Positions 54,624-59,605 of a stretch of DNA of 64,000 nt are shown one piece after another (the stretch's first letter is position 1; every line of letters starts with the position of its first letter). The position numbers and the translations under genes were made by a program. The DNA comes from Hymenobacter taeanensis (GTDB lineage: Bacteria; Bacteroidota; Bacteroidia; Cytophagales; Hymenobacteraceae), in contig NZ_CP053538.1 of NCBI RefSeq assembly GCF_013137895.1, forward strand, positions 3,379,001-3,443,000, written 5' to 3'. A model generated the notes under the pieces. The model did no database searches and was not told the origin of the DNA. It saw only the letters and a list, made by a program, of their open reading frames with translations.

Positions 54624-55073
54624 CTACCAGTTCGGGTTATGTAGTACGCCCAGGGTAGTATCGGTGCCCAGGGCCGTCTTGCTCGTGAACGTAACGCTGG
54701 CCAGTGTGAGGTGCACATGGCCTGTTTGGCTTGTCTCAGTAGCTAATACAGGAAACACGTCTATCGTTTGGAGCGGTATTTTGGGAGTGGCACCCAGGCG
54801 TATGGCAATCCGGTAGGCGTTTTCGACCAGATCAACGTCGGTGAGGTTGAGAAACAACGGCTCCGCTCGGGGGGTAAGCTGCTGGCTGTCATTCGTAGCT
54901 ATTATGTGCAACTCGCCGCCATCAGGCAGCAACAGAACTGCTTCGGGTGGGCCTGCCGGGTTGGGCTCCTGGCCCAGGGCTACACTATAATACTCCACTA
55001 CACTGGGCCACGTATCGGGGGGCACATAGAGGGTGAGGGTGCTGGTGGCTGACTCTGAGCTCATGGTGGCCAT
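54624..55073 (-). CDS. VOC/glyoxalase-like protein with C-terminal HNPNW (copy A)
   Basis: A 149-aa protein with a VOC-superfamily look: TLTLYVPPDTWPSVVEYYSVALGQEP, then LLLPDGGELHIIA and FLNLTDVDLVENAYRIA. It lacks clear metal-binding His/Glu pairs, so enzymatic activity is doubtful. The C-terminus LGVLHNPNW is identical in its last six residues to the neighbouring copy B at 55328. It lies 8 bp before the TPR kinase gene, so the two are likely co-transcribed. Upstream, 55080-55155 is very AT-rich and may hold a promoter. The VOC assignment is tentative. Confidence 0.7.
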   Translation of the reverse strand: MATMSSESATSTLTLYVPPDTWPSVVEYYSVALGQEPNPAGPPEAVLLLPDGGELHIIATNDSQQLTPRAEPLFLNLTDVDLVENAYRIAIRLGATPKIPLQTIDVFPVLATETSQTGHVHLTLASVTFTSKTALGTDTTLGVLHNPNW

Positions 55074-55327: not shown

Positions 55328-55741
55328 TTACCAGTTAGGGTTATGGAGGAGGCAGTCAGTGCGCTCCTGGATGAGGGCGCAGGGGTCACCGTATCCAATA
55401 AAGGCCGTGGTAACTTCTTTACCGGCAGGGCCAACCTCCCGCGGATCTTGGATGGAATACGCCGACTTATCGCTGTTCAGAAGGTCGCGGAATAATCTTC
55501 TCAGGGTTTGCCGGCCATTGGAGCCCCGCACTATGTGGTAGTAGGGCGGCTTTGTGTCGGAGGCATCTTTTTCGTCGGCTCTGGTGAGGTGCAGCTCAAA
55601 GTCAGCGTCAGCTGATGTAAAGGCCACCGTGGAAGCGCTGCGCTCCTGTGGCTGACCATAGAGCTGGGAGTAAAACCGCACAAGCTCATCCCATTCCGAA
55701 GACGGAACAATAACTTCAACTACATCAGCAGAATTTGTCAT
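55328..55741 (-). CDS. VOC/glyoxalase-like protein with C-terminal HNPNW (copy B)
   Basis: A 137-aa paralogue-like protein: VVEVIVPSSEWDELVRFYSQLYGQP at the N-terminus, ADFELHLTRADEKDASD in the middle, and the C-terminus LLHNPNW shared with copy A. The two proteins otherwise share only the VOC-like pattern, so they are old duplicates or convergent members of one family. The function is unknown. The ATG at 55741 follows an AT-rich upstream stretch of about 70 bp. It is separated from copy A by 254 bp with a large hairpin. Confidence 0.7.
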   Translation of the reverse strand: MTNSADVVEVIVPSSEWDELVRFYSQLYGQPQERSASTVAFTSADADFELHLTRADEKDASDTKPPYYHIVRGSNGRQTLRRLFRDLLNSDKSAYSIQDPREVGPAGKEVTTAFIGYGDPCALIQERTDCLLHNPNW

Positions 55742-55942
55742 GATAATCAGAAATAGTGTTAAATGAATATAATATATAAATTAAATGTTATAGTCGCTTT
55801 ATTTTTTTTAGTACTGCTACCCTTGCCCGGCAGCACCTGGCACCAAGCCTGCTGATAAAATCAGCTGTTGCGTGGGGTGGGGCAAACGCGGCAGGCTTGG
55901 AAGAACACTGCACTAGAAACACCGCGCGTTTTGGTTAAACAG
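55742..55942. other. Intergenic spacer, AT-rich near copy B
   Basis: Upstream region of copy B. The first ~70 bp are strongly AT-rich (TTAAATGAATATAATATA around 55759) and probably contain the promoter. The remainder is unremarkable. The whole gap to the type IIL gene is 324 bp and includes the terminator at 55943-55990. Confidence 0.4.
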
Positions 55943-55990
55943 AACGGTCAGGCTACAGGAAATACTTTCGTTTCCTGTAGCCTGACCGTT
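55943..55990 (-). terminator. Terminator of the type IIL restriction-modification gene
   Basis: A perfect 20-bp stem (55943-55962 with 55971-55990) and an eight-base loop, 75 bp past the stop codon of the minus-strand gene. The transcript runs right to left, and downstream sequence on that strand is moderately T-rich. Confidence 0.75.
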
Positions 55991-56065
55991 TTCTGCTGTA
56001 AGCGCTCAGCTGCTTTTATCGCTCCCATGCACCCGCTGCAAGTGGTGAGCTCCAAAGCAAGTGGC

Positions 56066-59000
56066 CTAGGCGGCGTAGGTGTCTTCCTCGGTGCGGCGCA
56101 GGAGGCTAAGGGCCGCGAGGGTATCCAGCAGGGGCTGCACTTTCTCGGGTTTCAGGCGGCGGAAGCGGGTGGCTACCTGAGCGGCGCTGACGGGCTGGCC
56201 CGCCTGCTGCACTACATCGCGCACGGCTTGCATCTGCTGGGCCAGCTCGGCGGGCCAGGGTTGGGGGCCGGTGGCTTCCGGGGTGGCAGTGGCTTGGGCA
56301 GCCTGCGCGGCGGGCAGCTCCAGGGCCGATTGTTGCAGCTCGGGGGCCTGGTAGGCGGGGCGCAGGTACCGGATGTGGCCCTGCTGCTCCTCGCGGGCGC
56401 GCTCGTGGTTGAGGCGCACGAGGCGGGTCAGAATCTCGGCATCGGGGAGGGCGCTAGGCCACCCGTAGGCCTCAGCTACGGCGGCATCGAGCTGCTGGTG
56501 GAGGCTGAGCACCACGGAGGCCAGGCCCTGCTGGTTGATGGTTTGCTCTTTGGCGGTGGACAGGGCCGTGCCGGCGCGCAGCTTCTCCACCACGTTGTAG
56601 AGGTCGGTGAGGGTGAGGCTGGGGTGCAGGGCCTGCTGGCGCTTGCGGTGGGCGTCGAGCTGTTCGGCCAGCTCCCGGATGCGCGCCTGCTGCTCCGCCG
56701 TGGCGGCGGGGAAGGGGAACGGGTCGAAACAGCGGGTTTTGTTATATATGGGAGTATTACCACCTAAATCACCTCCTGCGGCAAGAGCCCAAATATTATG
56801 AAACTTACTTGATAGTACTCCCAGATGGTAAGCATCATTCAGCGCGAATGCTATTAGCCTATGATCAGGGATAATATTGGATTCTAAGAATTGAAAAGTT
56901 CTATGTTTAGCTGTCTCTACCGTGGCTATAAACCGTTCTGTGCCAGCTATTGCGAGTCGCAAATTATCCCTGGTTCTTGCAAATAGCCACCACTTCTCTC
57001 TTATTCCTTTATCTCTATTTGCGTCTCTTTCAGGTTTGATTTTCTCAATAATATGTTGATACACTTTGGGGAACAGATTTAATATTTGGTCTGGGTTTAA
57101 GCCAAACATATCAATGACCATCGCTCCACGAGGTGTAGAAACCAAGTCTTTCCCATTACGATAGGGTTTGATATAATCAGATAGCTTCTCAACTGAGCCT
57201 AAGCCCAGAATATTAGCTTCCTCAGGAGTGACAATGAATCCTGAGCCCGCTAACATCATACCCATGCTAGTTACACCTTCGTTTGACAGTAATGCCTGAG
57301 TTCCCGCTACATCTGCACCTACGGTTAAATCGGAATTGATTATACCAGTTGTGTCAGTCAGTTCAACATTACGAGACTCGTCATCAGAAGACTCTTCATA
57401 AGTAACAGTAGAAAGTTTTCCAGGCTGTGCCCCTGCTTGTAGACTTGTCATAGCAATACGCACAGCAGCTCCATCGGCTCCGTCTACCCAAGGATGTTCA
57501 GGAATAGCGAATGAAAAGGAAATAGGGCTTTTGTCATTATTTAGATACTGCTCAATGATTCTTCGATTAAAAATCTGTGTGATAGAATTAGTTGTAATAA
57601 ACCCGAAGCGCTCAATTTGACCACCCTGAAGTAGTTTGGCAGCCTTATTCCACCAATACATCACAAAATCAGCTGAATCAGGTACTTGACCCTTATAAGC
57701 TTTCCGTAAAGCCTCCGTATAACCATCTCCTAAAGCTTCACGCATCCTTAGCTTTCCAATAAACGGCGGGTTGCCGACGATAAAATCGGCGGTAGGCCAC
57801 TCGGCGGGCTTGGGGTTGGGGTAGTCGAGGACGGGCGTGCGGGCGGTTTCGTCGGGGACGGGCTGGCCGGTGGCGGGGTGCAGGCGCGTGGTGCCGTCCC
57901 AGCGCGTGACGGGGTGGCCCAGGGCATCGAGACGGGGCACGGGCGCATCGTGTTGCAGGGCGGCATCCTGCTGGCGGATGTTCTGGTACTCATCCAGCAG
58001 GGGCTCGCGCAGCTCGGAGGGGCCGTAGGTGCGCAGGTGCCATTGCAGGTAGCCGATGCGCAGCACCACGTCGGCAATGGCGGCGGCGCGCGGGTTCAGC
58101 TCCAGGCCCAGCAGCTGGTGGGGGCTCACGGTGGTGCCGCCGCCCAGCTCCAGCAGGCCCGTGTGGCCGTAGCTGTTGATGGCGGCCAGCACCTCGCCCT
58201 CCAGGCGCTTGAGGTGCTCCAGCGTGACGTACAGGAAGTTGCCGGAGCCGCAGGCGGGGTCGAGGATGCGGATGGAGGTGAGGCGGCTCAGGAAGCGCAC
58301 CAGCTCCTGGCGGGCTTCTTTGGGGTTGCCTTCTTCGAGGCGGCGGGCCCCGGCGGCCTGGGCGGCGGCCCACTCGCGGCGGAGCGGCTCCAGCACCGTG
58401 GGCAGCACCAGGCGCTCTACGTAGCGGCGCGGGGTGTAGTGGGCGCCCAGGCTGTGGCGCTCCTTGGGGTCGAGGGCGCGCTCCAGCAGCGTGCCAAAAA
58501 TGGCCGGCTCCACCTCCGTCCAGTCGGCGCGGGCCGATTGCAGCAGCAGCTCGGCCTGGTCGGCGGTGAGGGGCAGGGCGGTGGCATCGTGGAAGAGCTT
58601 GCCGTTGAAGCGGCGCAGGCGGGCCTTGAGGTCGGAGGAGAACCCGCCCGTGTCCATGGTGCGCCAGAGGCCCTGGAGAGCATCGGGCAGAAACTCCAGC
58701 AGCTCGGGGGTGCGGTACTGGCCTAGCATGCCCGTGAAGGAGGTTTTCGGGATGAGGCCCACATCCTCGGAGAACATGGTAAACAGGCAGCGCATCAGGA
58801 ACTGCGCTACCACCTCGGGGGCGTGGCGGGCGCGCTCCAGCTGCTCCGAGAGCTTGGCCAGGCGGGCGGCCAGCTCCCGCGTCACGCGGGCGGCGCGGCG
58901 GCTGGGGTCCAGCTCACGCGGGGCCAGAAACACCTGCCGCAGCATGGCCCGCGTGCCCTCATCGGCCAGCGCCGACAGCGGCAGCCGGAACCGGGTCTGG

Positions 59001-59515
59001 TCGGGGAAGGGCACAAACGAATCACCGACGCCGGCAAAGTTGCTGTACACATCGAGGCAGTAGCCCACGTCGGCCACCAGCACAAAGAGGGGCCTGGGCT
59101 CCTCGGCGGGCAGGGCGCGCACGTACCCGAGGGCCTGCTGGCGGGCGGCCTGCATCATTTCGGCCCACTTGGCCGAGCCCCGCACGGCGTGGCCCTTGCG
59201 GCGCTTCTCGCTGGGCAGGCCCAGCTCGGCGCGGTTGAGGCGCTGCTGCTGATCGGGGGTGTCGGTGCCCTGCTTGGTTTCCAGCACAAAGCAGCCGCGC
59301 TTATAGAGGTCAATGCGGCCGGTGCTTTTCTTCTGGCCATCATTGAACTGCACGGCGCGCTCCAGCACGTATTGGTCTTGGGCGGGCGAGTCGGTGGTGG
59401 GGTCGGGGCGGGGTACTTCCAGCAGGTCGCAGAGGTCTTGCAGAAACAGGCCGTAGTTGGCCCGCTCCGCGCCGCCGGCGGGCTTCCAGCGGGCTTCAAA
59501 TTCGGGGTAAGTCAC
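56066..59515 (-). CDS. MmeI-like type IIL restriction-modification enzyme (single chain)
   Basis: A 1149-aa fused endonuclease, methyltransferase and specificity protein. The nuclease motif near the N-terminus is D69-x9-E79-T-K81 (GRIDLYKRGCFVLETK), the D-X9-EXK pattern of MmeI. A helical spacer follows, then the gamma-class N6-adenine methyltransferase: motif I ILDPACGSGNFLYV near 415-428 and motif IV VGNPPF near 580. The target-recognition region lies at about 760-940 (ending NTPIYNKTRCFDPFPFP), with a helical C-terminus. Type IIL enzymes recognise a short asymmetric site, methylate one strand and cut at a fixed distance. It is monocistronic, as is usual. The segment 56740-57765, from just after the NPPF motif through the recognition region, is far more AT-rich than the rest, pointing to replacement by recombination. 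The TAG stop is inside a CTAGGCCAC motif. Confidence 0.9.
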   Translation of the reverse strand: MTYPEFEARWKPAGGAERANYGLFLQDLCDLLEVPRPDPTTDSPAQDQYVLERAVQFNDGQKKSTGRIDLYKRGCFVLETKQGTDTPDQQQRLNRAELGLPSEKRRKGHAVRGSAKWAEMMQAARQQALGYVRALPAEEPRPLFVLVADVGYCLDVYSNFAGVGDSFVPFPDQTRFRLPLSALADEGTRAMLRQVFLAPRELDPSRRAARVTRELAARLAKLSEQLERARHAPEVVAQFLMRCLFTMFSEDVGLIPKTSFTGMLGQYRTPELLEFLPDALQGLWRTMDTGGFSSDLKARLRRFNGKLFHDATALPLTADQAELLLQSARADWTEVEPAIFGTLLERALDPKERHSLGAHYTPRRYVERLVLPTVLEPLRREWAAAQAAGARRLEEGNPKEARQELVRFLSRLTSIRILDPACGSGNFLYVTLEHLKRLEGEVLAAINSYGHTGLLELGGGTTVSPHQLLGLELNPRAAAIADVVLRIGYLQWHLRTYGPSELREPLLDEYQNIRQQDAALQHDAPVPRLDALGHPVTRWDGTTRLHPATGQPVPDETARTPVLDYPNPKPAEWPTADFIVGNPPFIGKLRMREALGDGYTEALRKAYKGQVPDSADFVMYWWNKAAKLLQGGQIERFGFITTNSITQIFNRRIIEQYLNNDKSPISFSFAIPEHPWVDGADGAAVRIAMTSLQAGAQPGKLSTVTYEESSDDESRNVELTDTTGIINSDLTVGADVAGTQALLSNEGVTSMGMMLAGSGFIVTPEEANILGLGSVEKLSDYIKPYRNGKDLVSTPRGAMVIDMFGLNPDQILNLFPKVYQHIIEKIKPERDANRDKGIREKWWLFARTRDNLRLAIAGTERFIATVETAKHRTFQFLESNIIPDHRLIAFALNDAYHLGVLSSKFHNIWALAAGGDLGGNTPIYNKTRCFDPFPFPAATAEQQARIRELAEQLDAHRKRQQALHPSLTLTDLYNVVEKLRAGTALSTAKEQTINQQGLASVVLSLHQQLDAAVAEAYGWPSALPDAEILTRLVRLNHERAREEQQGHIRYLRPAYQAPELQQSALELPAAQAAQATATPEATGPQPWPAELAQQMQAVRDVVQQAGQPVSAAQVATRFRRLKPEKVQPLLDTLAALSLLRRTEEDTYAA

Positions 59516-59605
59516 TGGGTAGGATAGCTGGGTAGATATTGAGTGGGGAAGATAAGTGGCCTAGGTGGATATAGTATAGAGAAAGTGGCCTAAAACCTAA
59601 AAACT

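Follow-up and report, generated by a model that had tools for sequence, protein, structure and literature searches.

The window analyzed here, a stretch of 64,000 nucleotides from Hymenobacter taeanensis, carries a complete gene for an MmeI-like type IIL restriction-and-modification enzyme on its minus strand (56066..59515 in the ORF list; 1149 amino acids, GTG start). A Pfam search of the 1149-aa protein returned MmeI_N (4.6e-23), MmeI_hel (8.2e-16), MmeI_Mtase (4.3e-31) and MmeI_TRD (3.6e-8, spanning residues 753-937). The PADLOC type IIG model PDLC03627 covered residues 2-1149 with a score of 1463 bits. MmeI (PDB 5hr4) was the top match of the protein both by sequence and by fold; when an AlphaFold2 model of the enzyme (mean pLDDT 83, pTM 0.68) was compared using Foldseek, MmeI ranked first with an E value of 8.2e-35.

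The protein could be divided into three parts, all encoded on the minus strand. The left arm (residues 1-585; 57761..59515) is GC-rich and comprises the nuclease domain, a helical spacer and the first half of the methyltransferase up to motif IV. An alignment of homologues placed a PD-(D/E)XK nuclease motif, D69-x9-E79-x-K81, at 59273..59311, and residues D69, E79 and K81 were invariant in 60 of the 60 aligned sequences (the window's included). These invariant residues and the MmeI_N match point to an N-terminal PD-(D/E)XK nuclease domain. In methyltransferase motif I, DPACGSGNF (residues 419-427; 58235..58261), D419-G423 and N426-F427 were invariant in all 60 sequences, and motif IV, NPPF, lies at residues 582-585 (57761..57772), where the left junction falls when the DNA of the window is compared with that of locus L002. 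The second part is the exchangeable AT-rich reader block (residues 586-926; 56738..57760), delimited by change points, GC3 and a separate tree. Near its start, just after motif IV, lies the loop K588-L589-R590 (57746..57754), identified by profile alignment to K487-S488-K489 of MmeI. Within the block, four-fold GC of the alleles and junction counts delimit a sub-block, M2 (residues 586-695; 57431..57760), that corresponds to the second half of the methyltransferase; Pfam MmeI_TRD and four-fold GC delimit the target recognition domain (TRD; residues about 700-926; 56738..57418). The third part, the GC-rich right arm (residues 927-1149; 56069..56737), contains the CFDPFPFP stretch, the C-terminal helices and a tail, and was defined by GC, identity, tree and model. 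The order is that of type IIL enzymes: a helical spacer is followed by a gamma-class amino-methyltransferase with motif I ahead of NPPF, then by a single TRD on the same chain and a C-terminal helical bundle, whose helices lie at residues 940-1044 in the predicted model. The activities characteristic of type IIL enzymes are m6A methylation of one strand and cleavage roughly 20 nt from the site.

The base composition changes abruptly inside this reading frame. Two change points were fitted in the coding sequence, at 57763 (residue 584) and 56737 (residue 926), with a 2dlnL of 262 as compared with at most 8.7 in 20 shuffles, which were scored on a coarser grid. For residues 1-580, 586-920 and 928-1149, the GC content was 0.70, 0.41 and 0.71, and GC3 was 0.90, 0.31 and 0.88, respectively. 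At four-fold sites, the GC content was 0.97 in the left arm, 0.26 in the block and 0.93 in the right arm, versus 0.72 in a sample of the host genome. A reading made earlier from the sequence alone (here called the sequence-only reading) had described such a change within the 1149-codon frame, with edges at 57765 and 56740, the left one just after NPPF and the right one just ahead of CFDPFPFP (residues 929-936; 56708-56731). Both edges are at most 3 bases from the fitted change points. Its estimates of about 70% GC for the flanks, about 40% for the block and about 28% for 57001-57060 agree with the measured values, a by-eye count giving G or C at 17 of 60 positions (28%) in the last interval. 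Its assignment of the block to the second methyltransferase half and the recognition region also holds, as the residues predicted to read the site lie within the block.

We then compared the gene with its host genome. The largest internal GC3 range, measured in 200-codon windows, was 0.65 in this gene and at most 0.245 in 98 other ORFs of at least 400 aa taken from 400 kb of the same genome. Among 198 ORFs of at least 250 aa in 400 kb of that genome, GC3 ranged from 0.35 to 0.82 with a mean of 0.69. The arms lie above and the block lies below all 198 host ORFs; therefore, the gene is a double outlier with respect to its host, rather than a native frame that received a single foreign piece. The body and the DNA-reading part of the enzyme have opposite, equally foreign base compositions. 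The GC-rich frame, which the sequence-only reading had taken as native, is as far from the host composition as the block is. Long antisense ORFs face the GC-rich arms on the plus strand (57878-58726, 58823-59527 and 55868-56767) and are probably a by-product of high third-position GC. At about 2.86 Mb of the same genome, an AT-rich island of three adjoining ORFs with a GC3 of 0.38-0.43 was found (L042, 9099-11910).

Close relatives of the enzyme differ from it mainly in the block. The protein of Hymenobacter sp. 5414T-23 (P0121) was 100% identical to that of the window in the left arm (580/580 aa), 55.9% identical in the block and 95.5% identical in the right arm. The first difference was at residue 586, and the differences in the right arm reached about residue 1061; as this comparison was made at the protein level, the ends of the exchange tract are located on the protein only. 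No locus as close as that of 5414T-23 was found among 120 genomes of the genus. The protein of H. gelipurpurascens (P0122) showed 98.3%, 53.2% and 88.8% identity in the left arm, block and right arm, respectively. The best match to the block elsewhere was in P0002 (74%), whose left arm is 90% identical to that of the window, and the next block match was at 60%. Such conservation of the flanks, combined with strong divergence of the recognition segment between close strains, is the pattern by which TRD exchange is recognized.

The same was seen across the family, in pairs of homologues (14,181 of 14,535 pairs, from 171 full-length homologues of the 211 fetched). The identity of the left arm correlated with that of the right arm at 0.93, and the two halves of the left arm correlated at 0.97; the correlation between the left arm and the block was 0.205. 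Whatever the left-arm identity between 0.4 and 0.95, the median block identity of each bin stayed at 0.54-0.57. It was 0.61 for the 59 pairs with arms at 0.95-0.99 and 0.997 for the 18 pairs with arms above 0.99; the closest strains often still share the block. The two arms remain associated with each other as the block varies.

Phylogenetic trees of 32 proteins gave a consistent picture; these were quick trees under a simple model, and the groups tested were picked after the identities had been seen. The window's enzyme grouped with P0121 and P0122 in the left-arm tree (support of 97) and in the right-arm tree (support of 98), whereas in the block tree it paired with P0002 (support of 100) and P0121 paired with P0114 (support of 100). 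The group of the window with P0121 and P0122 was rejected by the block data (AU test, P = 1.4e-7), and the pair of the window with P0002 was rejected by the left-arm data (P = 6.9e-6), the latter test being run without P0121 because of identical rows. The comparison of arm and block trees had been suggested in the sequence-only reading, and the nearest relatives do differ between the parts. Its proposal of a spliced-in module stands as far as replacement is concerned, given the conflicting trees; composition as the mark of a single import does not stand.

Recognition domains often evolve fast, and an ordinary fast-evolving domain diverging in place could be considered for these data, as could an artefact. 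However, the median block identity was equal for distant and close homologues up to 95% arm identity, the arm and block trees conflicted with strong support, and the pattern was repeated in many independent assemblies. We consider either of these explanations highly improbable. Exchange of the block is well supported, and it is very likely that the gene encodes a type IIL enzyme in which recombination within the conserved arms swaps the site-reading part like a cassette.

The junctions of the exchanged unit were examined at the DNA level. The window and L002 were identical over codons 575-585, ending with NPPF, and divergent from codon 586; identity resumed at residue 930, within CFDPFPFP, and continued to at least residue 938. 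Among 127 close pairs, which are partly related and not independent, 40 inferred left junctions were at residues 580-589, 37 were before residue 580, and 39 were at residue 620 or beyond, 20 of the 127 being at residues 690-729 (left junctions were allowed within residues 450-760). The inferred right junctions were at residues 920-949 in 87 of the 127 pairs; this range and residues 580-589 on the left were the main modes. M2 was exchanged with or without the TRD. The left junctions beyond NPPF fit the composition of the alleles because M2 is GC-rich in some of them and AT-rich in others (four-fold GC mostly close to 0.9 or to 0.3, depending on the allele), and the TRD is AT-rich throughout L001-L030 (four-fold GC of 0.22-0.47 in all, the window's own locus included).

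These boundaries can be related to the DNA contacts of MmeI. According to the excerpted description of its structure (PMC4833311), K487, S488 and K489, right after NPPF, make minor-groove contacts to base pairs 2 and 4, those of the lysines K487 and K489 being nonspecific; E806, R808 and R810 touch base pairs 6 and 4; and the flipped adenine is held by NPPF, H314 and W570. In a profile alignment, MmeI residues 487-489 and 806-810 aligned with residues 588-590 and about 919-923 of the window's enzyme, so the unit covers the reader but leaves out the portion of the adenine pocket formed by NPPF. By this alignment, the exchanged stretch corresponds to the region from the first to the last site-reading residue described for MmeI, leaving aside the flipped-adenine pocket. 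In a protein alignment, the window's enzyme and P0002 both had K-L-R, E867 and H885-R886 and differed near residue 921. P0121 and P0122 differed from the window's enzyme at every mapped site-reading place, as would be expected for enzymes with different sites.

We propose that incoming homologous DNA would recombine in the arms, often at the conserved NPPF and CFDPFPFP codons. The nuclease and the methyltransferase are predicted to share a single reader, so that one swap would move cutting and methylation together to a new site and leave the cell still protecting its own DNA. The recognized site would change with each swap of the block.

To see whether the valley in GC content is peculiar to this strain, we turned to other loci of the family. 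The block was GC-poorer than both arms in the window's locus and in 29 of 29 other Hymenobacter loci, which have divergent blocks. A total of 96 distinct loci (of 109) were then compared, from Hymenobacter, Pontibacter, other Bacteroidota, many Proteobacteria and a few other phyla. With the window included, four-fold GC was higher in the left arm than in the block in 95 of the 96 loci, and higher in the right arm than in the block in 87. For comparison with the host background, 82 of the 96 loci were kept, those without enough flanking genes being dropped. The left arm was above the background in 75 of the 82 loci, and the right arm was above it in 70, although in only 1 of 5 loci from other Bacteroidota or Rhodothermota. 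The block was below the background in 62 of the 82 loci: 33/35 in Hymenobacter, 5/5 in Pontibacter, 5/5 in other Bacteroidota or Rhodothermota and 19/37 in the others. Four Hymenobacter loci with more distant frames (L062, L212, L216 and L220) had TRDs with a four-fold GC of 0.62-0.84; therefore, AT-rich readers are no rule for every Hymenobacter enzyme. The GC mosaic characterizes the frame and the reader throughout the family, rather than being the trace of one recent event. The sequence-only reading had seen in the mosaic the sign of a swap in this strain; since the valley is also present in all 29 of the other Hymenobacter loci, it cannot date a swap to this strain. Similarly AT-rich segments in the orthologues had been named in the sequence-only reading itself as an outcome that would speak against it.

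These data also bear on whether the valley can be explained by a single import, from an AT-rich lineage, of a recognition module that entered a native GC-rich frame. Such an import would fit a block whose GC3 of 0.31 lies under all 198 sampled host ORFs, and the nearest strain carries another block. However, divergent blocks show the valley in 29 of 29 other loci, and the frame itself lies above all 198 host ORFs. Furthermore, a search of 395 genomes from the phylum and 390 from the order, with some genomes in both sets, revealed no AT-rich donor for the block of the window's enzyme (best matches of 58% and 59%, respectively). One AT-rich import was rejected as the whole story because the valley is family-wide and no donor was found, and we regard this explanation as unlikely.

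The left arm was next compared with a host gene. In 23 of 27 Hymenobacter hosts, the left-arm four-fold GC was 0.90-0.98 and that of rpoB was 0.44-0.77. The left-arm value was 0.62-0.84 in the other four (L023-L026) and 0.77 in L027, a locus outside the rpoB comparison. If codon selection were the cause, the frame would use preferred codons, on account of expression level or translational accuracy, and the block would be less adapted. The silent-site GC of the frame is nearly uniform along its length, in agreement with this idea. However, the difference between the frame and the host's own rpoB in those 23 hosts, the reading frame shared by the arms and the block, and the small dependence of four-fold GC on residue conservation (0.89-0.91 in the left arm and 0.43-0.52 in the block) all make codon selection quite unlikely. 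Because of its small effect on four-fold GC, residue conservation was itself rejected as the cause of the composition contrast.

The direction of change in the frame was then analyzed. Two orthologues, L007 and L015, each with one in-frame TAG and possibly decaying copies, were left out of the codon-aligned sets. In a set of 21 frames picked from the high-GC end, parsimony gave 157 GC-to-AT and 19 AT-to-GC changes, a ratio of 8.3 that exceeds those of a stationary simulation (1.7-3.4) and a decay simulation (3.5-6.7). Because a skewed composition biases parsimony, we turned to a likelihood model. The equilibrium GC for the 21 frames was 0.89-0.93 under four rootings, and the host value of 0.72 was worse by a 2dlnL of 21.5-88.8. 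With 36 frames (57 sites), the equilibrium was 0.83-0.86, and the host value was worse by a 2dlnL of 10.9-21.7. With 28 frames (the L001-L030 set, 167 sites), it was 0.91, 0.82 or 0.727 depending on the root, the last value, obtained with the midpoint root, being that of the host. The claim that the frame GC is maintained was dropped because the fitted equilibrium shifts with the taxa and, in the wider sets, depends on the root.

It is a serious possibility, if short of probable, that both parts are mobile, the frame coming from a GC-rich pool and the readers from AT-rich pools, with both drifting to the host composition. The frame four-fold GC did not track that of the host rpoB (rho = 0.12, 27 loci), and both the excess of GC-to-AT changes in the 21 frames and the midpoint-root equilibrium at the host value are consistent with drift. 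Plasmid-borne members of the family also exist, namely, L058 (Halomonas sp. Y3) and P0029 (Hymenobacter qilianensis, as named in the source), and are possible vehicles for reader cassettes. On the other hand, other roots and taxa gave an equilibrium of 0.82-0.93, with the host value of 0.72 worse by a 2dlnL of 10.9-107.5, the pool of origin was not found for either the frame or the readers, and the TRD GC partly tracked that of the host rpoB (rho = 0.54).

Another process that could produce the contrast is GC-biased gene conversion, in which the arms and common sub-block alleles recombine repeatedly and become GC-rich, and rare blocks without a partner stay at or below the host composition. 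Across several phyla, the left arm exceeded the background (75/82 loci) and the block (95/96 loci), and some of the above fits place the frame equilibrium above the host value, as this process would require. In addition, M2 alleles were richer in GC the more similar they were to their closest counterpart among the other alleles (rho = 0.85 for 28 Hymenobacter loci from L001-L030 and 0.68 for 45 loci), with a weaker trend for the TRD (rho = 0.50 and 0.47, respectively). However, this M2 correlation may stem from the descent of one common allele group that supplies most of the signal, and 74 loci from other taxa did not show the trend (rho = -0.05). Individual alleles also deviate from it: M2 of L028 is rare yet GC-rich, M2 of L007, L014, L019 and L020 is AT-rich despite partners with 91-93% identity, and two Pontibacter loci with 97% identical blocks have a block GC4 of 0.13-0.14. 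Moreover, GC is flat along the left arm, without the rise towards the junction expected under a simple conversion model, and the equilibrium fit depends on the taxa and the root. GC-biased conversion is thus possible but rather doubtful, and two drifting mobile pools are at least as likely.

A broader statement, that partnered segments (the arms and the common M2 allele group, at 0.64-0.98) are driven GC-rich regardless of the host and rare readers mostly lie at 0.2-0.5, is to be taken as doubtful too. If conversion were nevertheless the cause, swapping itself, and not AT-rich donors, would make the mosaic, and the family would be a natural experiment on GC-biased conversion. The within-gene contrast holds the host genome, expression and reading frame constant; therefore, whether recombination raises bacterial GC becomes directly testable.

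Several known systems resemble the one described here. As far as the excerpted report goes, MmeI and type IIL enzymes (5hr4; PMC4833311) share with the window's enzyme the domain order, motif I, NPPF, PD-(D/E)XK and one reader for both activities. MmeI has 919 aa versus 1149 aa here, the C-terminal part being longer in the window's enzyme, and the specificity changes in the excerpts are made residue by residue, whereas here the whole reader is swapped as a block within a compositionally opposite frame. In Helicobacter pylori type I, IIG and III systems, the excerpted reports (PMC3077401, PMC3983042 and PMC7379913) describe recognition domains that move, likewise, between alleles by recombination, which is thought to use conserved or repeated flanking sequence. 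In the type I/IIG systems of those excerpts, the specificity subunit is separate, and its two TRDs trade positions or are replaced; unlike them, the window's enzyme exchanges one block at one position of a single chain, with half of the methyltransferase included and a strong GC mosaic. Domain movement (DoMo), as in the H. pylori S subunits, is marked by one TRD sequence occurring at two positions of the gene with repeats on either side. PglX/BrxX of BREX and DrmMI of DISARM have a related methyltransferase-TRD core. However, the NCBIfam BREX models scored far under their cutoffs (21.4 bits versus 900, and 20.2 versus 400), the nuclease motif sets the window's enzyme apart from PglX/BrxX and DrmMI, and a Pfam search found no BREX or DISARM partner domains in the six neighbouring genes.

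Exchange of recognition domains in restriction enzymes is already a known kind of event. The novelty lies in having mapped the exchanged unit for a type IIL enzyme and in the contrast in composition that separates frame from reader throughout the family. The titles and abstract openings of the literature searched make no mention of a GC mosaic in MmeI-like genes, which leaves its absence unproven. The natural specificity-exchange unit of a type IIL enzyme, now mapped, provides concrete junctions for laboratory chimeras. In this strain, it begins right after motif IV, at the loop that touches bases in MmeI, and ends past the last site-reading residues.

Two of the six neighbouring genes code for small proteins that match no Pfam family; the other four code for a TPR histidine kinase, a YtfJ-like protein, a fasciclin-domain protein and an Na+/H+ antiporter. 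In L053, L071, L056 and L011/L085, the restriction gene is adjoined by homologues of the kinase or the fasciclin protein, and in L002 by a homologue of the YtfJ-like protein; the gene therefore seems to occupy a shared place in several species. The two small proteins (54624-55073 and 55328-55741) both end in HNPNW, and distant homologues of them (34-36% identity) were found near the restriction gene in L071 and in L056, the latter from the genome that also carries L010. Additional partial copies of the C-terminal arm were present downstream of the gene in L018 (5946-6287) and L085 (13627-13815), possibly as scars of earlier replacement or duplication. Isolated C-terminal fragments also occur in other genomes.
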